From Bacillota bacterium (GTDB lineage Bacteria > Bacillota_E > JAJZYS01 > JAJYTV01), in assembly GCA_021845645.1 (NCBI GenBank), contig JAJZVM010000002.1, positions 124,001 through 188,000 on the forward strand: DNA of 64,000 bases. The letters are read 5' to 3'. Both the position numbers and the translations under genes were made by a program. The notes below the pieces were generated by a model. It saw only the letters and a list, made by a program, of their open reading frames with translations, ran no database searches and was not told the origin of the DNA. Position 1 is the stretch's first letter; each line of letters opens with the position of its first letter. Shown here piece after piece: positions 48,460 through 58,427 of the stretch.

Positions 48460-48525
48460 AGGAGGGGCGCAGGAGAGACGCATGGGTCAGCAGTCGCGAC
48501 AGTGAAGGGATTGGAGGGGATACGA

Positions 48526-50160
48526 ATGCGCGACACGTGGTGGAAGACTGTGCTTGGCCCCTTGGCGGCCGCCGGGCTACTGCTCGCCGTCGCAGCGCCC
48601 GCGGTCGGTCCGGCCGGCCAGGCGGCGGCCGCCAGCAGCGGCGGCACGATCGTCGACGGGCTCTACGAGGAACCGGGCAACCTGAACCCCATCCTTGGTC
48701 CGGACATGACCTATTCGCAGATCGTCGACACTGCGATCTTCCGCAACCTCTTCATGATCACGCCGAACGGCACGATGGAACCGGATCTCGCCAGCGTCGT
48801 GCCGAGCGTGCAGAATGGCGGCATCTCCAAGAACGGTCTCAGCTACACGTTCCACCTGAAGCAGAACGCGGACTGGTCGAACGGCCAGCCGGTGACCTGC
48901 CAGGATATCTACGAGACGTGGAAAGTCGTGACAAACCCCTCTGTCCTGGCGGTCACGCGCCTGGGCTGGGATGACGTCACCAACGTCAAGACCATCAGCC
49001 CCAAGGTCTGCGAAGTCGACCTGAAGGCGCCCTTCCCGGCGATCCTGATCGACGACTTCTCCGGCAACCTGCCGGGCATCATCCCCTACTCGGTCTTCAA
49101 CGGCATGACGGCGCAGCAGATCAACACGGCCTCGTTCAACCACGACCCGACCGTGACCGACGGTCCGTACATGTTCCAGTCCTGGGTGCCCGGCGCGTCG
49201 ATCACCGTCGTCGCGAACCCGCATTGGTACGGGCCGACCCCCAAGGAAGGGACCATCGTCTTCAAGGTCATCCCTGACGAGAACTCCCTCCTGGCCAACG
49301 CCCAGGCCCACCAGATCAACACCTACTACTTCGCGCCGATCGAACAGGTGCAGCAGCTCAAGGCGATCCCGGGCGCCCACGTCTTCTTCACGCCGATGGC
49401 GGCCTGGGAATCGGCGGACATCAACTTCCGCAACCCGGCGCTCCAGGATCGCAACGTCCGCGTCGCACTCGAGATGGCGATCGACCGGCAGGCGATCCTG
49501 AAGAAGATCTGGCTCGGCTACGGTGTGCTGTCCGCGGCCGACCAGCCGTCGATCATCTGGGCCAACAATCCCAAACTGAAGCCCTACTCCTACGATCCGG
49601 CCGAATCCAAGATCCTGCTGAACAAGGCCGGCTGGAAGATGGGGTCCGACGGCTACCGCCACAAGAATGGCAAGACGCTGCAGCTGGTCTACGCCACAAC
49701 CGCCGGCAACCCGTGGCGTGAGGCGACCGAGCGCCTGGTCCAGTACTGGTTCCAGCAGATCGGTGTCAAGATGGTCATCCACGACTATCCGGCCAACGTG
49801 TACTTCGGCACCGTCTTGCCGTCAGGCAAAGGCTGGGACCTCGGCGAGTTCGAGTGGACCGAAGGCTACGACCCCGCCGCATCCGAAGAGCAGCTCTACG
49901 AGACAAACGCCGCGCAGAACTTCGGCAAGTACTCGAACCCTCAGGTCGACAAGCTGCTCAAGGAGCAGGACACCATGCTGAACCAGTCGGCGCGCCAGAC
50001 GGTGCTGCGCCAGGAGCAGGCCATCCTGCACCAGGATCTGCCCGCGCTCTGGTACTACACCCCCGACGAGATCGATGCAGCGATCAACCTCACCGGCTAC
50101 CAGCCGGACCCATGGTACGTCGAGACCTGGAACTGCTACGACTGGCAGCTGACCCAGTGA
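48526..50160 (+). CDS. Peptide ABC transporter substrate-binding protein (SBP family 5)
   Basis: The 544-residue exported protein has a signal peptide (about 1-38, ending near AAAASSGG) with no lipobox Cys. Family 5 motifs include GLYEEPGNLNPILG, VVPSVQNGGIS, YTFHLKQNADWSNGQPV, NVRVALEMAIDRQAIL and a C-terminal LPALWYYTPDEI. ATG 48526 lies six bases after GGAGGGG. It should deliver peptides or other solutes to the DppBC pore; the lack of a lipid anchor is slightly unusual for a monoderm. Confidence 0.93.
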   Translation: MRDTWWKTVLGPLAAAGLLLAVAAPAVGPAGQAAAASSGGTIVDGLYEEPGNLNPILGPDMTYSQIVDTAIFRNLFMITPNGTMEPDLASVVPSVQNGGISKNGLSYTFHLKQNADWSNGQPVTCQDIYETWKVVTNPSVLAVTRLGWDDVTNVKTISPKVCEVDLKAPFPAILIDDFSGNLPGIIPYSVFNGMTAQQINTASFNHDPTVTDGPYMFQSWVPGASITVVANPHWYGPTPKEGTIVFKVIPDENSLLANAQAHQINTYYFAPIEQVQQLKAIPGAHVFFTPMAAWESADINFRNPALQDRNVRVALEMAIDRQAILKKIWLGYGVLSAADQPSIIWANNPKLKPYSYDPAESKILLNKAGWKMGSDGYRHKNGKTLQLVYATTAGNPWREATERLVQYWFQQIGVKMVIHDYPANVYFGTVLPSGKGWDLGEFEWTEGYDPAASEEQLYETNAAQNFGKYSNPQVDKLLKEQDTMLNQSARQTVLRQEQAILHQDLPALWYYTPDEIDAAINLTGYQPDPWYVETWNCYDWQLTQ

Positions 50161-50186
50161 CCTGATCTCCGTACGGCCACAGTCCA

Positions 50187-50218
50187 GGGCGCGCGCCGGT
50201 TGTTGCCGGCGCGCGCCC
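50187..50218 (+). terminator. Hairpin after the substrate-binding protein gene
   Basis: Perfect 13-bp stem GGGCGCGCGCCGG/CCGGCGCGCGCCC with loop TTGTTG. No U-tract follows. Confidence 0.6.
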
Positions 50219-50308
50219 GCGAGTTCTGGCACGTGGACGGGGCCTCGGTCACCTCCGCACGGACTGGGGGCCGGGTGGCCGGTCTGGTCCGCCAGGTCTC
50301 TTAGGCGC

Positions 50309-51532
50309 TCAGACGGCAGGGCTGGCGGATGCGGTCTCTGCCCCAGCTGCGGCAAGCAGCCTCGGGATACTGCCGACGAAGGCGCCGACGCCGACGGCGA
50401 GGGCATCCTCGTCCACGGTGAAGCGGGGGTGATGATGCGGATAGATGATCCCCTCGTGCGGATTGGCTGCACCGATCAGGATGAACGTCCCTGGTGCCTT
50501 GGTCTGGAAAGCGGAGAAGTCCTCCCCGCCCATGGTGGTGAGGCCGTCCACCACCAGCCGCTCCGGGCCGAACGTCTCTGCGAGGGCCTCGCGCAGCCAG
50601 CGCGTGACCTTCCCGTCGTTGACGACGGGCCTGTAGCCCTGCTCGTAGGAGAATTCGTAGCGGGCGCCGTGGGCTTCGGTGATCCCCCTGACGATCCTCT
50701 CCATGAGGGCCGGCACGTCCTGCCTGAGCTGGGGGTTGAACGAGCGCACCGTGCCCTCGAGCTCCGCCGTTTCCGGGATGATGTTGTCTGCCGTGCCGGC
50801 GTGGAACTTCGTGACGGAGAGCACCAGGCGGTCGAGAGGGTCCGTGCAGCGCGACACGATGTGCTGCAGGTTCGTGACGATCTGGGCCCCCACTGCCACA
50901 CTGTCGACCGTCATGTGCGGTTGCGCGGCATGTCCGCCACGCCCCCGCACGATAATGCGGAACGTGTCGGGTGCGGCCGTGAGCGGCCCGGCGGCCACGC
51001 CCACCATGCCAACCGCGAGCGGCATCCAGAGATGGGCGCCGATCACGAGATCGACCCCGTCCATGACTCCGGCGTCCACCATCTCTTGGGCCCCGCCAGG
51101 GAACAGTTCCTCGGCGTGCTGGAAGAGAAAACGCACTTCGCCTGCCACCTGTTCGCGCAGGCCGGAGAGGACCTTCGCCGTACCGAGCAGCATCGCCGTG
51201 TGCCCATCGTGCCCGCAGGCATGCATGACCCCGGGATTCTGCGAAGCGAACCCGAAATCGTTCTCTTCCGTGATCGGCAGGGCATCCATGTCCGCCCGCA
51301 CCGCCAGGACAGGGCGGGGCGACGAGCCGATCAGCCTCGCCATCACGCTCGTCCGCGTGGGCCGCGAAACCTCGAGCCCGGCGAACGTCTTAAGGATGTC
51401 GTAGACGAAGTTCGCCGTCTCTTCCTCCTGGAACGAGAGTTCCGGATGTGCATGCAGGTGCCGCCGCCATTGCAGCACGTCTTGTCGCACCGATTCCGCC
51501 GCATCCGCCAGCATTCGGGCATCCATCGCCAA
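50309..51532 (-). CDS. M20-family amidohydrolase (hippurate/N-acyl-amino-acid hydrolase-like)
   Basis: The 407-residue metallohydrolase has RRHLHAHPELSFQEEET, AVRADMDALPITEE, VMHACGHDGHTAML (metal ligands), FLFQHAEELFPGGA, the dimerisation-domain motif GRGGHAAQPH and the C-terminal TTMGGEDFSAF. It hydrolyses N-acyl or peptide bonds. I chose TTG 51532, seven bases after GGGAGG; ATG 51526 is possible. Placement opposite the peptide-transporter operon suggests a role in handling imported peptides. Confidence 0.92.
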   Translation of the reverse strand: MAMDARMLADAAESVRQDVLQWRRHLHAHPELSFQEEETANFVYDILKTFAGLEVSRPTRTSVMARLIGSSPRPVLAVRADMDALPITEENDFGFASQNPGVMHACGHDGHTAMLLGTAKVLSGLREQVAGEVRFLFQHAEELFPGGAQEMVDAGVMDGVDLVIGAHLWMPLAVGMVGVAAGPLTAAPDTFRIIVRGRGGHAAQPHMTVDSVAVGAQIVTNLQHIVSRCTDPLDRLVLSVTKFHAGTADNIIPETAELEGTVRSFNPQLRQDVPALMERIVRGITEAHGARYEFSYEQGYRPVVNDGKVTRWLREALAETFGPERLVVDGLTTMGGEDFSAFQTKAPGTFILIGAANPHEGIIYPHHHPRFTVDEDALAVGVGAFVGSIPRLLAAAGAETASASPAV

Positions 51533-51767
51533 GTGCGCACCTCCCGGGCCATTGCTCCCTGTCAGCGCAAGCATACCGCTGGCGCGGGCGCTGGCAATGA
51601 TCAAGTCCCCACCCCGTTCAGGCAGGTTCGCGTGACATGGTCCACCTGTCTCAAACCGTAGCCGGTCTGGCAGGAGCCTTCGAGGCAGCAGGGGCCGGCG
51701 CGGACACGCGCCCTCTGGCCCATCTGCAGCGCAGGATTACGTCACGTGGCCACTGTGAGCGAGCGCG

Positions 51768-52338
51768 CTACGCAAGACAGACAGGCGGCCTGCTCCCAGT
51801 GAGGGGGCAGACTGCTTCGCTGCCGCCGTCGGTCGACTTCAGGACGGACCAGTCGGGGCAGGAGATCCGCCGTACGCGGGAAGTGCGCAGTCCAGGCCGG
51901 CCACGTCGTACGCGAGGCGCGGGGAGACGAAGTCGAGCCGCAGGACGACAAGGGACGGCGGCTTCCCGTCCACAGCGGAATCCAGGTCGTCCAGCGGGCG
52001 CCCCCGTCGCTCGTACGCCAGATCGTCGGCGTTGGCGTGCCTCCGCGTTCCGGAAGCGCCAAATGGGAGGCGGCCCAACCTTCGCTGCCGGTAAGGAAGT
52101 CGATCGCGTCGAAGAGCGGCGAGCCCGTCTCCGCCTGGGGGAGCGCCGTGGAGAAGGCGGAGGTGATCCGCATGTGCCGTGAGAGGAAGTCTTGGACGGC
52201 CGGGTGCGCCCGTGGCGATGCGCCCTTCGGCACGGACGTCCGGCAGGCCGGGAGAAGGATCGCGACCAGCGCCAGCGGGAGGATGCGGGAGGGACGCACC
52301 ACGCGCGACACATCCCCGCCCCGCACGAAGGCCATCAT
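51768..52338 (-). pseudogene. Frameshifted Asp-box (Ycf48/BNR-like) lipoprotein gene
   Basis: From about 52338 the minus strand encodes a signal peptide with lipobox LLPAC and then AIDFLTGSEGWAASHLALP and WRTSDGGARW, an Asp box. The homologous pattern continues in a second frame (LDFVSPRLAYDVAGLDC) and then in a third (WSVLKSTDGGSEAV), before an early stop near 51768. At least two frameshifts are needed to read it through. It is a decayed relative of Asp-box secreted proteins such as the one at 43421-45532. Confidence 0.6.
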
Positions 52339-52391
52339 CAGGAGACAGCAAGAAGCTTCGGATTTCGACGCCTGCGGCGGCCCTCCTCCGC

Positions 52392-52420
52392 TTGACGGCC
52401 GTCCATGCGGACCGTATAGT
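52392..52420 (+). promoter_or_regulatory. Promoter of the serine T-box operon
   Basis: TTGACG (52392-52397), a 17-base spacer and TATAGT (52415-52420), close to consensus. The start is expected near 52427. Confidence 0.85.
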
Positions 52421-52426
52421 AGGCGC

Positions 52427-52651
52427 AATTCCATCTGCCATCTGCCGATGAGCGGGAAGAGGATCTTCGCGCCGCGAAGCGAGCCGGGGCGGTGTAAGCC
52501 GGCCGCGCAGGGATCCCCGATTCCACCCGCGAGGTGCCGGCGACGAGCCGGACGTTGGCCGCGTGACGGCTGCAGAGGGGATCCGGCCGTGGCCGGATCA
52601 ATCAGGGTGGCACCGCGACGCACCGTCGTCCCTGAGGGACGGCGGTGTTTT
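52427..52651 (+). promoter_or_regulatory. T-box leader with serine specifier
   Basis: The T-box core AGGGTGGCACCGCGAC lies at 52604-52619. In the 3' part of Stem I, CCGAT is followed by TCC (52522-52524) and then ACCC, the codon-N-CCC layout also seen in the two other T-boxes. TCC is a serine codon and fits the serine-synthesis genes downstream. Other Stem I marks are AGCGAGC near 52478 and the apical GGTGTAAGCC. Confidence 0.9.
52621..52651 (+). terminator. Intrinsic terminator of the serine T-box
   Basis: Stem CACCGTCGTCCC/GGGACGGCGGTG with one G-U pair and loop TGA, then TTTT. The ribosome site GAGGAGG of the first gene is 20 bases on. Confidence 0.88.
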
Positions 52652-52679
52652 GTTGTACGCGGGGAGAGGAGGATGCCGG

Positions 52680-53822
52680 GTGGTCTGGACCGAGCGGCTC
52701 CTGATCCCGGGACCGACGCACGTGCCGAGCGAAGTGCTCGGCGCGCAGGCGCGCCAGATGACCAACCACCGCGGCGCGTCCTTCAGCGAGCTCGTCGGCG
52801 CCGTCGAGGAGGAGATCGCTCTCCTCGCCGACGCAGAGCGGGCGGTCGTTCTGCCGTCGAGCGGCACAGGCGGGCTCGAGGCGGTGGCGCAGAATCTCCT
52901 GCGCCCCGGGGACCGCGTGCTGGCGGTCTCGGGCGGCGCCTTCGGCGAGCGCTTCGCGCGAGTTGCGGAGCGCAGCGGTGCCGAGGTGACGCGGCTCGAG
53001 GTGACCTGGGGCGAGGCCGCTTCGCCGGCCGAGGTGGTGGCCCGGGCGGCGTCTGGCGACTTCCGGGCGGTGCTCCTCACCCAGAACGAGACCTCTACGG
53101 GCGTTCTCCACCCCGTGGAGGAGATCGCCTGGCGCCTTGCGGGCGGTCCCCTCGTGATCGTCGACGCGATCAGCGGCTTCCCTGCGGTGCCGCTCAAGCT
53201 GCGGAAGGCCGGCATCGACGCGGCCGTCGCCTGCTCTCAGAAGGGGTTCATGGCGCCGCCCGGCCTCTCGCTCGTGCTCCTCGGCCCGCGGGGCCTCGAC
53301 GCCGCCTCCGCCCCGGCCGACCGCCCCGCCTACTTCGACCTCAGGCCCTACCTGAAGGGCTCTTTGCCCTACACCCCGGCCGTCTCGCTCGTCTACGCGC
53401 TGCGCGAGAGCCTGCGCCTCCTCGAGGAGGAGGGCGAGGAGGCGCGGCTTGGCCGCCACCGCCTCCTCGCCGCGATGACGCGCAGTGCCGGCAAGGCGCT
53501 TGGCCTCGCCCCGCTGGCGCCCGCGGCGGTCGCGTCGCCCGCTGTCACGGCGCTCGAGGTGCCGGGCGGCCAGGCGGACGCGCTGCGCCGCGCGGCGCAG
53601 CGCCGCGGCGCGGTGCTCGCCGGCGGCCAGGACCGCCTCAAAGGACGGATCGTGCGCGTCGGCCACGTGGGCTCGGTCATGCCGGTCGACCTCCTGGGAG
53701 GTCTCGGCGCGCTCGAGCTCGCCCGCGCGGAGGTCCTGGGCAGCGCGCCGGACGGCCGCGGCGTGGCTGCGGCACTCGGCGTCTGGGCCGTATCTTGGAC
53801 GACAGAGAGGAGTGGCGCCTGA
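52680..53822 (+). CDS. Class V PLP aminotransferase, probable phosphoserine/serine aminotransferase
   Basis: The 380-residue enzyme belongs to the alanine-glyoxylate/serine-pyruvate aminotransferase branch: LLIPGPTHVPSEVLGAQ, NHRGASFSELV, LPSSGTGGLEAVAQNL, LLTQNETSTGVLHPVEEI, IVDAISGFPAVPLKL (PLP Asp) and PLP Lys in ACSQKGFMAPPGLS. It is not canonical SerC, but this branch paired with serA is known to supply the 3-phosphohydroxypyruvate transamination step in several lineages. GTG 52680 lies seven bases after GAGGAGG. Its stop overlaps the serA start, and the Ser T-box controls both. Confidence 0.88.
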   Translation: MVWTERLLIPGPTHVPSEVLGAQARQMTNHRGASFSELVGAVEEEIALLADAERAVVLPSSGTGGLEAVAQNLLRPGDRVLAVSGGAFGERFARVAERSGAEVTRLEVTWGEAASPAEVVARAASGDFRAVLLTQNETSTGVLHPVEEIAWRLAGGPLVIVDAISGFPAVPLKLRKAGIDAAVACSQKGFMAPPGLSLVLLGPRGLDAASAPADRPAYFDLRPYLKGSLPYTPAVSLVYALRESLRLLEEEGEEARLGRHRLLAAMTRSAGKALGLAPLAPAAVASPAVTALEVPGGQADALRRAAQRRGAVLAGGQDRLKGRIVRVGHVGSVMPVDLLGGLGALELARAEVLGSAPDGRGVAAALGVWAVSWTTERSGA

Positions 53823-55408
53823 TGGAGAGGCCGAAGATCCTTGTGTCAGAGGTGCTGGATGCGCAGGCGCTCGCCCTCCTTGCGGAGCACGCGGAGGTCG
53901 AGGCCCACGAGACGATGCCCGAAGCGGACTTCCGGGCGCGCCTTCGCGAGTTCGACGCGGTCATCATCCGCAGCGCCCACCGCCTTACTGCGGAGCACTT
54001 CCGCCTCGCGCCGGGCCTTCAGGTCGCGGCGCGCGCCGGCGCGGGCGTCGACAACATCGACCTCGACGCCGCGACCGCGGCCGGCGTCCTCGTCCTCAAC
54101 ACGCCCGGCGCGAACGCCGTCGCGGCCGCCGAGCACACCTTCGCGCTACTCCTCGGCACAGTGCGCCGCGTGTGCCCCTCGGACCTCCACGTGCGCGCCG
54201 GGGGCTGGCGCCGCCAGGACTACATCGGCTTCGAGCTCAGGGGGCGCCGGCTCGGCATCATCGGTATCGGGCGCGTCGGCCGGGAGGTGGCGCGCATCGC
54301 CCACGGCTTCGGCATGGAGGTCTACGCCTACGACCCCTACGTGGACCCCACCGAGATCAAGCGGCGCGGTGCCGTGCCCTGCGCGACGCTCGAGGAGCTC
54401 CTGCAGAAGGCCGACGTGCTCACGGTCCACACGCCGAAGACCGGCCCGCGCCTCGGCCGCGCCGAGCTCTCGCGCCTGCCGCAAGGCGCCGTCGTGCTGA
54501 ACGTGGCGCGTGGCGGGCTGATCGATGAGCAGGCGCTCATGGACCTCCTGGACGAGGGCCACCTCAAGTTCGGGGCGCTCGACGTGTTCACCCACGAGCC
54601 GCCGCGCGACGAGCGCCTCCTCGCGCGGGACGACCTCCTCTTCACCTGCCACCTCGGCGGCTCGACGAACGAGGCCATGGGCAAGATCGGCACGCGCGTC
54701 GTGCAGCTCGTGCTGCGTGCTCTCGCCGGCGAGGTGCCGGAGGAGGCCGTCAACCTTGCGCTGCCGCAGCTCGACGGCCTTCCCTCGCAGCAGCTGATCG
54801 CGGCGGCCGGCCGTGCGGGCGGGGTGCTCGCGGCACTCGCGAAGGTGGACGGCCCGCTCGTGATCGCGGCCCGCGGGCCCCTGCCCGAGGAGGCCCTGCC
54901 CATCGCGGCGCGGGCGCTCATCGCGGGCTACCTCGGCGTCGCCGCGGACGAGCCCGTGAACGTCGTGAACGCCCTCGTGCAGGCTCAGCGCCAGGGCATC
55001 GCGCTGGAGCTGCGGCGCGAGCCCGAGGACGACGCGCCCGCGCGCATCGCGGCCTGGTTCGCCGGGCAGCCGGAGAAGGACGTCGAGTGCGCTGTCGCGG
55101 ACGGCCGCCTGCTCCGGCTCCTTGGAGCGCCCCTGGACCTTCCCGTCCAGGGCCACCTCCTCGCGACCCGCCACCGGGACCTGCCCGGCGTCGTTGGCCG
55201 CGTCGGCACCCTGCTCGGCGCGGCGGGCGTGAACATCGCGACGCTCCAGCTCGCGCGCTGCGGCGGCGGGCAGGCGGTGATGGCGCTCGGCCTCGACGAC
55301 GAGCCGCCCGCCGAGGCGCGCAAGGCGATCGCCGCGCTGGCCGAGGTGGCGGAGGTGTTCTCGGTCGCGCTCGAGCAAAGCCGCTCGCGGGAGGCGGTAA
55401 AGCCTTGA
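53822..55408 (+). CDS. serA: D-3-phosphoglycerate dehydrogenase
   Basis: The 528-residue long-form SerA catalyses the first step of serine synthesis. Substrate-domain motifs include [18 protein letters not shown] and [22 protein letters not shown] site [19 protein letters not shown]; catalytic Arg, Glu and His in [23 protein letters not shown] and [10 protein letters not shown]. It is followed by an intervening (ASB) domain and a C-terminal ACT domain ([19 protein letters not shown]) for serine feedback. ATG 53822 overlaps the previous stop (TGATG). TTG of the next gene overlaps its own stop. Confidence 0.96.
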
Positions 55409-56235
55409 TCGTCGACCAGCACGTGCATCTCGAGAACGGTCCCTACACGCCCGAGGACTACCCGCAGGAGTGGCTCGAGGCCTATCTCGCCACGGCCGCG
55501 CGCCGCGGCGTCGCGCGCATCGGCTTCGTCGAGCACGGCTACCGCTTCGTCGAGGCGCGGGGCCTCCTGCCCGGGACCTGGTCCGAGGAGCGCTGCCGCT
55601 ACCGGGTCGAGCGCTACTTCGCCTTCGTGCGGCGCATGCAGGACCTGGGGCTGCCGGTCGCCGCCGGCATCGAGATGGACTACTGGCCCGGCCACGAGGA
55701 GGGCATTCGGCGCTTCCTCGAGCGCCATCCCTGGGACTTCGTGCTCGGCTCGGTGCACTTCGTCGGCGACTTCGGCGTCGACCTCGACCCCACACCCGAG
55801 ACCTGGCGGCAGATGGGGGAGGAGGCGGTCTGGGAGCGCTACTTGGCGCTCAGCGAGCAGGCGGTGGAAAGTGGCCTCTTCGACGTCCTGACGCACCCCG
55901 ACCTGCCGAAGATCTTCGGCCAGCGCCCGCCCGCGCTCGCCCTCGACTGGTACCCGCGCATCGCGCAGGCCCTGCGCCGCCGGGACATGGCGATCGAGTG
56001 CAACAGCAGGGGGATCCGCCGCCCGATCGGCGAGCCCTACCCGACCCTGCCCTACCTGCAGGCTGCGCACGCGGCCGGCGTGCCGCTCTCCCTCGGCTCC
56101 GACGCCCACGAGCCCGAGAATACGGGCATCGGCCTCGACCAGGCCGCGTCGCTCGCAGCGGATGCCGGCTACCAGAAGGCGGTCCACTTCCTCGGCCGAC
56201 GCCGCATCGCCGCTCCCCTACCCGGCGCGCCGTGA
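55405..56235 (+). CDS. PHP-family phosphatase (HisJ-like), candidate phosphoserine phosphatase
   Basis: The 276-residue PHP-domain phosphoesterase has the full set of metal ligands: H6 and H8 in DQHVHLE, H44 in FVEHGY, E90 in [10 protein letters not shown]118 in [10 protein letters not shown]164 in LTHPDLPK, and D233/H235 in LGSDAHEP. Its nearest known relatives are monofunctional histidinol phosphatases, yet no his gene is near. It is coupled to serA by a TTGA overlap inside a serine T-box operon that lacks serB. A phosphoserine phosphatase role is therefore inferred from position only. TTG 55405 lies ten bases after GGGAGG. Confidence 0.85.
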
Positions 56236-56270
56236 GGCGCAGGCGGGCGTCGATGCGTCAGAATCGAGGC

Positions 56271-56507
56271 ATGCACCCGCGCCCAAGCTCGCTGCCGGAT
56301 GAGAGCCTGAAGGACGCCGCCGGGCGGATGCGCGCCGCCCGGCGAACCGTTGTCGTCGGCTCGCGCGGCGCCGGCAAGACGACCTTGGCGCGTGCGCTCG
56401 CACCGCTCCTCGGCCTCCCGCTCCACCACCTCGACCGCCTCTACTGGCAGAGCGGCTGGGCGCCGCGCGGGGACGATGTCCAAGGCCGTCGAGGAGTTCG
56501 ACCTCCG
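56271..56507 (+). pseudogene. 5' remnant of a P-loop kinase-like gene
   Basis: From ATG 56271 the frame gives [18 protein letters not shown] (Walker A), then [19 protein letters not shown], the start of an adenylate-kinase/FlaR-like P-loop protein. The homologous pattern stops there, and the frame runs on into an unrelated sequence. A 3' truncation is likely. Confidence 0.5.
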
Positions 56508-57032: not shown

Positions 57033-58427
57033 ATGGCAAGCGTTCGCACGTACCTAAAGGAGCACAGTCAGGTCTTCACGGATCTCAGTGACCGCATCTG
57101 GCACACCCCGGAAATCGGCCTTCGCGAACAGGCGAGCAGCCAAGCGCTCATGGACGCCCTCGCAGCGGAGGGGTTCGCCCTGAATCGGCTGGAGTCGATG
57201 CCCACCGCCTTCGTCGCGAGCTACGGCGAGGGCGCGCCGGTCATAGCACTGCTCGGCGAGTACGACGCACTGCCTGGCCTCAGCCAGGCGGCGGATGTGG
57301 CGGAGAGAGCACCTATCGTCGAGGGCGGCCCCGGACACGGCTGCGGACACAATCTTCTCGGCACCGCCGCAGCGGCGGCAGCCATGGCCGTGCGACATGC
57401 CATCAGGAGCCAGGGGCTGCGCGGCACCGTGCGCTTCTATGGCTGTCCCGCGGAAGAGACCCTGGTGGGCAAGGTGTTCATGGCGAAGGAAGGCCTGTTC
57501 CGCGACGTCGACTGCGCCCTCACGTGGCATCCCGGCAGCGCCAATGCCGTCTGGGCGGCGAGCACCCAGGCGATGAACTCGGTACGCATCCGCTTCCACG
57601 GCATCCCCGCGCACGCCGCCGCCAACCCGGAGGACGGACGCAGCGCCCTGGACGCCGTCGAGCTGATGGACGTCGGAGCCAACTTCCTGCGTGAGCATGT
57701 CCCCTCGGATGCGCGCATCCACTACGTGATCACGGACGGCGGCGATGCACCGAACGTGGTCCCCGCCCATGCGGAGGTCTGGTACTACGTACGCGCCCCG
57801 CGGCGCGACGACGTCGAGGCCATTTACCGCCGCCTCCTGGACGTCGCCCGCGGCGCGGCCCTGATGGCCGGCGTCAGCCATGAGGTGGAGCTCGTCACCG
57901 GCTGCTACGACACGCTTGCGAACCGCGTCCTCGGCGACCTGCTGCAAGAGCAGATGGAGAACATCGGCGCGCCCGTGTTCAGTCCCGAGGAGCACCGGCT
58001 CGCGCACGACCTGCAGGCCACGTTCGCGGACGGGACGGTCGAGCGGGCGGTGCGCCACCTCAGGCGCCGCGGCCTCGCGGTGCCGGCCGGCTGCGACCTC
58101 GTCGAGGCCGTCGCGCCGAGCTCCGGCTACGGCAAGGTCGACAGCGGATCGACCGACGTGGGCGACGTGTCCCACATCGTGCCGACAGCCCAGCTGACCG
58201 CGGTCACGGCTCCCCTCGGGACGCCGGGCCATTCCTGGCAGAACGTCGTCTCGGTCGGGAGCGGCATCGGTCACCGCGGCATGCTCTACGCAGCGGAGGT
58301 TCTGGCTCAGGCGGCCGCCGAGCTCCTCGCGCGTCCCGAGCTGGTCGCCCAGGCCAAGGAGGAGTTCCGCCAGAATGCGGAGCCCTATGTCTCTCCGGTG
58401 CGCGACCTGGCGACGCCGCGCGGCTGA
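57033..58427 (+). CDS. M20-family amidohydrolase (AbgB-like)
   Basis: The 464-residue hydrolase resembles the aminobenzoyl-glutamate hydrolase AbgB/peptidase M20D group: LSDRIWHTPEIGLREQASS, IALLGEYDALPGLSQ, EGGPGHGCGHNLLGTAA, YGCPAEETLVGKVFMA, IPAHAAANPEDGRSALDAV and STDVGDVSHIVPTAQ with final H in GTPGHSWQNV. It probably cleaves an amide in an acyl- or aminobenzoyl-amino acid. ATG 57033 follows a weak AGGGTGAGG. It stands alone after the relic region and is convergent with the TetR gene. Confidence 0.92.
   Translation: MASVRTYLKEHSQVFTDLSDRIWHTPEIGLREQASSQALMDALAAEGFALNRLESMPTAFVASYGEGAPVIALLGEYDALPGLSQAADVAERAPIVEGGPGHGCGHNLLGTAAAAAAMAVRHAIRSQGLRGTVRFYGCPAEETLVGKVFMAKEGLFRDVDCALTWHPGSANAVWAASTQAMNSVRIRFHGIPAHAAANPEDGRSALDAVELMDVGANFLREHVPSDARIHYVITDGGDAPNVVPAHAEVWYYVRAPRRDDVEAIYRRLLDVARGAALMAGVSHEVELVTGCYDTLANRVLGDLLQEQMENIGAPVFSPEEHRLAHDLQATFADGTVERAVRHLRRRGLAVPAGCDLVEAVAPSSGYGKVDSGSTDVGDVSHIVPTAQLTAVTAPLGTPGHSWQNVVSVGSGIGHRGMLYAAEVLAQAAAELLARPELVAQAKEEFRQNAEPYVSPVRDLATPRG

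Follow-up and report, generated by a model that had tools for sequence, protein, structure and literature searches.

How does a cell complete serine synthesis when the operon that should encode the pathway holds a PHP-family phosphatase gene and no recognizable serB? The question is raised by a 64,000-nucleotide stretch of a Bacillota bacterium genome (assembly GCA_021845645.1, contig JAJZVM010000002.1, positions 124,001 to 188,000 of the forward strand), here called the window, in which genes for a class V aminotransferase, a SerA-like 3-phosphoglycerate dehydrogenase (serA) and a PHP-family protein follow a serine-type T-box leader. The original prediction, made from the letters of the window, was that the PHP enzyme acts on phosphoserine. 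From the operon and its recurrence in relatives, we judge it probable that the protein is a phosphoserine phosphatase of the PHP type, which may act on histidinol phosphate as well.

The operon and its leader

The operon extends over window positions 52392 to 56235 and reads as a single transcription unit (Table 1), with a start and an end that agree with those first proposed. A single promoter had been claimed, and one was found between 52200 and 56500. The three genes overlap as described, the aminotransferase gene and serA by 1 base (TGATG) and serA and the PHP gene by 4 bases (TTGA), when each is taken at its likely start. Within the operon there is no phosphatase gene besides PHP and no his gene, which bears out the earlier observation on serB and histidine genes; taken alone, however, the lack of serB in the operon is weak evidence.

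The leader holds the three elements that define RF00230, namely a specifier codon, a T-box sequence and a terminator, and the serine specifier that had been read as TCC was recovered as UCC in the alignment. The UGGC in the T-box sequence suits a G73 discriminator, as in tRNA-Ser. Taken from a 461-base search, the score of 56.3 bits falls below the Rfam gathering score of 93, so the leader is unlisted in a default scan of the window. The leaders of aminotransferase-serA operons in relatives are likewise below 93 (31.8 to 92.1 bits), and we read this as a threshold effect in leaders rich in G+C.

Table 1. Features of the serine operon, with coordinates in the window
Feature	Position	Strand	Evidence
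Sigma-A-like promoter, TTGACG-17-TATAGT	52392-52420	+	Sole promoter-like site in 52200-56500; shuffle mean 0.1
T-box leader RNA, serine type	52439-52636	+	RF00230, 56.3 bits, E 1e-11, all 219 model positions
Specifier codon UCC (Ser)	52522-52524	+	Inferred from alignment to the T-box model
T-box sequence AGGGUGGCACCGCG	52604-52617	+	
Leader intrinsic terminator	52620-52648	+	13 pairs, 9 G-C, T-rich tail; shuffle mean 0.7
Class V aminotransferase, presumed phosphoserine aminotransferase	52680-53822	+	PF00266, 80 bits; pairing with serA recurs in relatives
SerA-like 3-phosphoglycerate dehydrogenase, C-terminal ACT domain	53822-55408	+	PF02826 164.6, PF00389 111, PF01842 28.6 bits
PHP-family phosphatase (HisJ family, PRK07328 subfamily), proposed phosphoserine phosphatase	55405 (TTG)-56235	+	276 aa; PF02811 45.1 bits, cut-off 26.4

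The encoded proteins

The PHP protein exceeds the curated cut-offs of the HisJ-type models TIGR01856 (95.7 against 90.2 bits) and NF005596 (202.7 against 202). It has the PHP barrel with the HxH and further ligand columns of the HisJ family, and neither TIGR00338 nor any other HAD model is among the 7 NCBIfam families listed for it. Columns H6, H8, H44, E90, H118, H164, D233 and H235, which we take to be the metal-binding residues, are kept in 35 of 35 aligned rows linked to serA or to histidine genes (the window included, locus L206 left out) and in structure 2yxo; the ligand columns of the protein are intact, as first claimed.

The SerA-like protein has its catalytic (2-Hacid_dh), NAD-binding (2-Hacid_dh_C) and ACT domains. 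It scores 437.7 bits with TIGR01327, just short of the equivalog cut-off of 454, and is filed as SerA-like for that reason. The aminotransferase falls below every NCBIfam cut-off listed. The SerC models TIGR01364 and TIGR01366 give 23.5 and 41.9 bits against cut-offs of 443.6 and 401.65, and we would place the protein in a branch of class V aminotransferases other than SerC as those models define it.

The models that score best with the aminotransferase, all under cut-off, are those of aspartate-glyoxylate and 2-aminoethylphosphonate aminotransferases, as one might expect if the pathway ran in an altered order or by a non-phosphorylated route, with the PHP acting on 3-phosphoglycerate or phosphohydroxypyruvate and the aminotransferase on hydroxypyruvate. 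We regard such a route as highly improbable, however: the SerA is of the phosphoglycerate dehydrogenase type with an ACT domain (the best glyoxylate reductase model reaches 196.1 bits, against 437.7 for TIGR01327), and PF00266 (class V) aminotransferases encoded beside serA have been proposed to be phosphoserine aminotransferases, under the name SerC3 (PMC9026213).

Recurrence of the operon in the class

Relatives were gathered by genome scans only. The PHP loci used are the best 80 of 585 confirmed with a four-sequence alignment query, and counts among the 80 are therefore a sample by similarity; a scan with the window PHP alone as query gave 31 pattern matches, none of them a relative. Presence and absence were assessed in 154 genomes from the class of the nearest genome, G001 (locus L004, Bacillota bacterium TL1-4.bin53).

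A survey of PHP genes adjoining serA, which the original prediction had suggested, found 10 co-directional operons among the 154 class genomes and, beyond these, 21 convergent loci in Bacillota. In the ten (G073, G074, G075, G076, G077, G114, G034, G035, G163 and G031) the PHP gene immediately follows serA, on the same strand; the serA of G031 is cut by a contig end. With starts as taken, serA and the PHP gene overlap by 4 bases (ATGA, GTGA or TTGA) in G074, G075, G076, G077, G163, G031 and the window, and by more in G073, G114, G035 and G034, the start in G034 being unsure. An aminotransferase gene precedes serA in all nine linked operons where this is visible.

The contigs of G077, G163 and G031 begin inside the operon, which places their leaders outside the data. 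Where a contig reaches the start of the linked operon, a T-box stands upstream of the aminotransferase gene in 8 of 8, the window included. Scores in G075, G074, G076, G034 and G035 (58.2, 58.8, 59.2, 92.1 and 66.3 bits) are above that of the window, and those in G073 (31.8 bits, E 0.0027) and G114 (32.4 bits, E 0.0018) are weak. The sequence GGGTGGNACCNCG is present in all eight, and UCC-AC occupies the place of the specifier in seven, G114 being the exception. A T-box also precedes aminotransferase-serA pairs that have no PHP gene in the operon in the five examined (G150, G126, G133, G136 and G001), with UCC-AC in all of these except G126. The leader and the first two genes thus appear to be general, and the PHP gene is a variable third member.

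Two further cases were not counted as linked. In G082 the aminotransferase-serA pair (T-box 64.9 bits, UCC-AC at the specifier place) ends 53 bases before the end of its contig and the PHP gene starts at base 139 of another; in G039 a PHP fragment lies downstream of serA with one frame between them. Behind the serA-PHP operon of G034 there is a second T-box of 94.3 bits on the opposite strand (L206, 5304-5531). About 1.4 kb downstream of the serA of G136 lie 20 CRISPR-DR2-like repeats (L216, 8419-9713), at 35 bits each against a gathering score of 37.

The serA neighborhood in Bacilli and the PHP tree

Among the best 80 loci, the PHP gene is convergent to serA in 21 Bacillota, mostly Bacilli; the two matches lie no more than 1 kb apart in 16 of them and no more than 5 kb apart in all 21. 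The group includes Fictibacillus, Cytobacillus, Halobacillus, Thalassobacillus, Salinibacillus, Salimicrobium, Virgibacillus, Tepidibacillus and Pseudalkalibacillus. Because convergent neighbors are not an operon, this is weaker evidence than that given above. Another HisJ is present in 19 of the 21 genomes, all except G005 and G009, and scores 195 to 242 bits, against 118 to 142 for the PHP beside serA; HisD was found in 33 of 34 genomes searched, all 21 of these included. In those 19 genomes, therefore, the PHP beside serA should not be needed for histidine.

A tree of 135 PHPs, made by a quick method and with SH-aLRT supports only, distributes the co-directional operons over three groups: the clade of the window (22 rows, support 100), G034 together with G035 (supports 87 to 89, with a single very long branch), and G031 together with G163 (4 rows, 100). 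Forks between these groups are weak; two changes were counted against the other labelled groups, and the starred branches force only one. On this tree, repeated gain and an ancient linkage of serA and PHP with later losses are equally possible. The 21 convergent Bacillota fall in one group of 27 rows (support 97). Joined to it at 88 is a weakly supported group of 6 rows (84) with four subfamily members that stand in histidine operons (L017, L027/L204, L202 and L203), and these, beside the Bacillota group, are a natural contrast set for the choice of substrate.

SerB and histidine genes in related genomes

The searches for SerB and HisN were made on the genomes of relatives rather than on the window's own. 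SerB (TIGR00338) exceeded its cut-off in none of the 154 class genomes (best 63.8 against 144.15 bits) and in 7 of 14 controls. It exceeded it in none of 34 further genomes either; in neither set did the search cover YsaA, SerB4 or PF00300-type enzymes. HisN (TIGR02067) was likewise over its cut-off in 0 of 154 genomes, a weak test with only 2 of 14 controls passing. Among the downstream frames of PHP-less relatives, judged by translation only, no other phosphatase was evident behind serA.

In the class, members of the HisJ family over cut-off occur in 95 of 154 genomes, HisD in 109, SerA (E <= 1e-60) in 82 and any PHP match in 108. A PHP match of at least 190 bits is found in 38 genomes, of which 31 have SerA and 34 HisD. 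A strict co-occurrence of PHP and SerA was rejected, since SerA is also found in 51 of the 116 other genomes; among these 51, G034 and G163 hold weaker-scoring linked PHPs, and the p-value of the comparison takes no account of kinship. One should keep in mind that HisD can mislead as a marker of histidine synthesis. In G080, where HisF is missing, the HisD gene (L227, 7582-8838) adjoins a permease-like frame, and so does one in G077 (L224, 2450-3715), which has a second HisD; both are apparently outside histidine synthesis. G073 has no HisF match, and its HisD is cut.

A HisJ-family match at E <= 1e-10 is lacking in 33 of the 82 SerA-bearing genomes. Of the ten genomes with linked operons, G034, G163, G031 and G073 hold a second HisJ-family match, and in the other six (G074, G075, G076, G077, G114 and G035) the serA-linked PHP is the only one at E <= 1e-10, with HisD and HisF both present. 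For this reason one enzyme may act on both phosphoserine and histidinol phosphate: in these six genomes the serA-linked PHP may also serve histidine, or an enzyme of another family may do so.

The same six genomes, together with the lack of HisN over its rarely passed cut-off, could also be read with the PHP as a histidinol-phosphate phosphatase only, which landed behind serA, and an unlinked HAD or histidine-phosphatase-type enzyme as the serine phosphatase. The family models do name the protein a histidinol phosphatase, the nearest structure is one, and subfamily members stand in histidine operons. We nevertheless consider this unlikely, as a serine T-box would then control a histidine enzyme, the link to serA recurs in 10 operons, and a separate HisJ is present in 19 of the 21 convergent Bacillota and in G073, G034, G163 and G031.

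Residues that may bear on the substrate

Price et al. (PMC5764234) note that phosphoserine and histidinol phosphate have the form R-C(NH3+)-CH2OPO3 in common, and propose that, in four bacteria, genes with a phosphoserine phosphatase annotation encode histidinol phosphatases. YsaA of Bacillus subtilis is reported to be active on both compounds (PMC8002221).

Three positions set most of the serA-linked PHPs apart from the four histidine-linked subfamily members, in a comparison that includes L206 and excludes the distant histidine-linked L205 and L246 from the histidine group. Position 63 is Arg in 30 of 32 serA-linked proteins (the exceptions are L139 and L208) and Lys, Lys, Gln and Thr in the histidine-linked four. 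At position 91, adjoining E90, 27 of the 32 have Met, as does none of the four; Trp occurs at position 55 throughout the four and nowhere among the 32. Arg63 could meet the carboxylate that is present in phosphoserine and absent from histidinol phosphate, and an Arg for the carboxylate would equally suit 3-phosphoglycerate or phosphohydroxypyruvate, as in the altered route considered above. Several actinobacterial PHPs of unassigned context mix the letters at the three positions. We would use the pattern as a lead for mutagenesis only. An EH-x-Y/F-x-F motif was rejected as a marker of the link to serine because it also occurs in the four members from histidine operons.

Evidence against a role in serine synthesis

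Several observations count against the proposed role. Subfamily members do occur in histidine operons, as described, and in ten genomes (G134-G140 and G150-G152) the PHP gene is not beside serA. Any PHP match is lacking in 27 of the 82 SerA-bearing class genomes, and SerB over cut-off is absent there too; another phosphoserine phosphatase must therefore exist in the class, and it may also be present in the genome of the window. TIGR00338 gave no match at E <= 1e-8 in the control B. subtilis, which has a SerB (PMC8226366), and its absence thus does not exclude other HAD enzymes. For these reasons, that SerB is absent across the class, PHP-less genomes included, and that the model misses B. subtilis, we rejected SerB absence as proof of the PHP role.

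The residue pattern follows the tree and is no independent test, and the loop that carries part of it is gapped in the alignment. A further caution comes from Desulfovibrio vulgaris: an Escherichia coli serB mutant was not rescued by its DvMF_1903, a putative phosphatase whose gene follows that of phosphoglycerate dehydrogenase (PMC5764234). A position behind serA can therefore mislead.

The last point concerns four genomes (G078, G079, G080 and G083) that keep a PHP 59-64% identical to that of the window and nested in its clade, and in which no SerA at E <= 1e-60 and no HisF was found. Their only aminotransferase and SerA matches are distant (30-35% identity) and on separate contigs. Either the PHP has another use there, outside serine and histidine synthesis, or it is a relic or being lost, or the distant enzymes make serine. 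In the three such loci tested, a gene for a DUF554 membrane protein directly precedes the PHP gene (L144, 7087-7845; L146, 8795-9709; L150, 6870-7934). Elsewhere, in L157 and L153, the PHP gene lies behind a CtaG-like cytochrome oxidase assembly gene, in L157 also ahead of an EmrE/EamA-like transporter gene, and by eye similar frames flank it in L154, L158, L160, L161 and L162.

PHPs kept without a close aminotransferase-SerA pair and without HisF, behind a DUF554 protein, would be expected if the enzyme acted on some other phosphorylated compound or protein and merely shared the serine signal in the window. The structural neighbors of the protein agree with this, since they include PHP proteins of other function: tyrosine phosphatases and components of polymerase and RNase P. 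We hold such a substrate to be improbable.

Proposed function

Our preferred reading remains a phosphoserine phosphatase. From the leader, the gene order and overlaps, the intact PHP fold with its ligand columns and the recurrence in relatives, we infer a direction for the pathway, a substrate for the PHP and a response to tRNA-Ser, as follows. The operon would make serine from 3-phosphoglycerate: SerA would oxidize this to phosphohydroxypyruvate, the class V aminotransferase would convert it to O-phosphoserine, and the PHP would release serine by metal-assisted hydrolysis. When serine is short, uncharged tRNA-Ser (anticodon GGA) would bind the T-box leader and keep the terminator from forming, and the three genes would be read. 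The PHP would derive from the histidinol-phosphatase family and have shifted to, or added, phosphoserine, both substrates being of the type R-CH(NH3+)-CH2-O-PO3.

Of the original prediction, the link between PHP and serA is borne out by its recurrence, and this, like the lack of TIGR00338 matches over cut-off in both genome sets, favors a phosphoserine phosphatase; activity on phosphoserine is left less certain by the members in histidine operons, the orphan PHPs and the genomes that lack SerB and PHP alike. The chances seem about even for a broader proposal, that Bacillota possess a further, PHP-superfamily type of phosphoserine phosphatase, which arose within the histidinol-phosphatase family and became joined, in several lineages, to aminotransferase-serA behind a serine T-box and, in Bacilli, to the serA neighborhood, with one enzyme serving both pathways in some lineages.

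If true, a PHP-type enzyme would account for some of the many Firmicutes in which serA and serC are present and no serB is recognized. Some 'histidinol-phosphatase' annotations would need correction, and predictions of serine auxotrophy would be altered. It would also show in nature how an enzyme can pass from one amino acid pathway into another whose substrate resembles its own.

Neighboring genes

Just behind the operon a P-loop kinase-like frame begins (window 56271-56500) and by eye is soon out of frame; it may be a degraded gene or reflect a sequencing fault. The flanks (48502-51604 and 57033-58427) hold a family 5 extracellular solute-binding protein and two M20 peptidases, one on each side.

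Comparison with known systems

The closest known enzymes are the HisJ/HisK histidinol-phosphate phosphatases of the PHP family (Thermus thermophilus, 2yxo; Lactococcus lactis, 4gyf), which share the fold, the HxH and ligand columns, the length and the family models. The window PHP is 32% identical to 2yxo. It differs in standing in a serine T-box operon with serA; moreover, the loop that follows EH is extended, includes R63 and lacks the W55 seen in the four members from histidine operons. T. thermophilus has a phosphoserine phosphatase of the HAD type, and HisB, the E. coli histidinol phosphatase, is a HAD enzyme. Phosphoserine phosphatase activity would be a new role for the known PHP family, and no PHP-type phosphoserine phosphatase was found in the literature searched, which leaves subscription journals mostly outside. 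In PMC8787120, the PHP family and phosphoserine phosphatase are represented by different proteins, Php1 and SerB of Porphyromonas gingivalis.

Four kinds of SerB have been distinguished: SerB1 (HAD), SerB2 (PF00300), SerB3 (the HAD enzyme of B. subtilis) and SerB4 (HAD with an extra domain) (PMC9026213). The window enzyme would carry out the same step, and its genomic link to serC3-serA is of the sort argued for SerB4 in that paper; its fold is that of the PHP superfamily, neither HAD nor PF00300. The same source reports that 450 of 2856 genomes, from diverse Firmicutes, carry serA and serC and have none of the four kinds, and no word in its main text starts with 'PHP'. Another survey describes the keeping of serA and serC in the absence of serB as unclear (PMC7478625).

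Regulation has a parallel in Paenibacillus polymyxa, where a serine T-box also precedes serA (PMC8002221). The specifier there is AGC and serC lies elsewhere, whereas the window has UCC and a three-gene operon; serB was not found by name in that species, and a ysaA homologue was. For the proposed change of substrate, the nearest precedent is E. coli HisB, a histidinol phosphatase that, when raised by laboratory mutation, replaces SerB in a serB knockout (PMC6296033). There, as proposed for the window, a histidinol phosphatase takes on the phosphoserine step; in the window the candidate is a PHP enzyme, and the setting is a natural operon.

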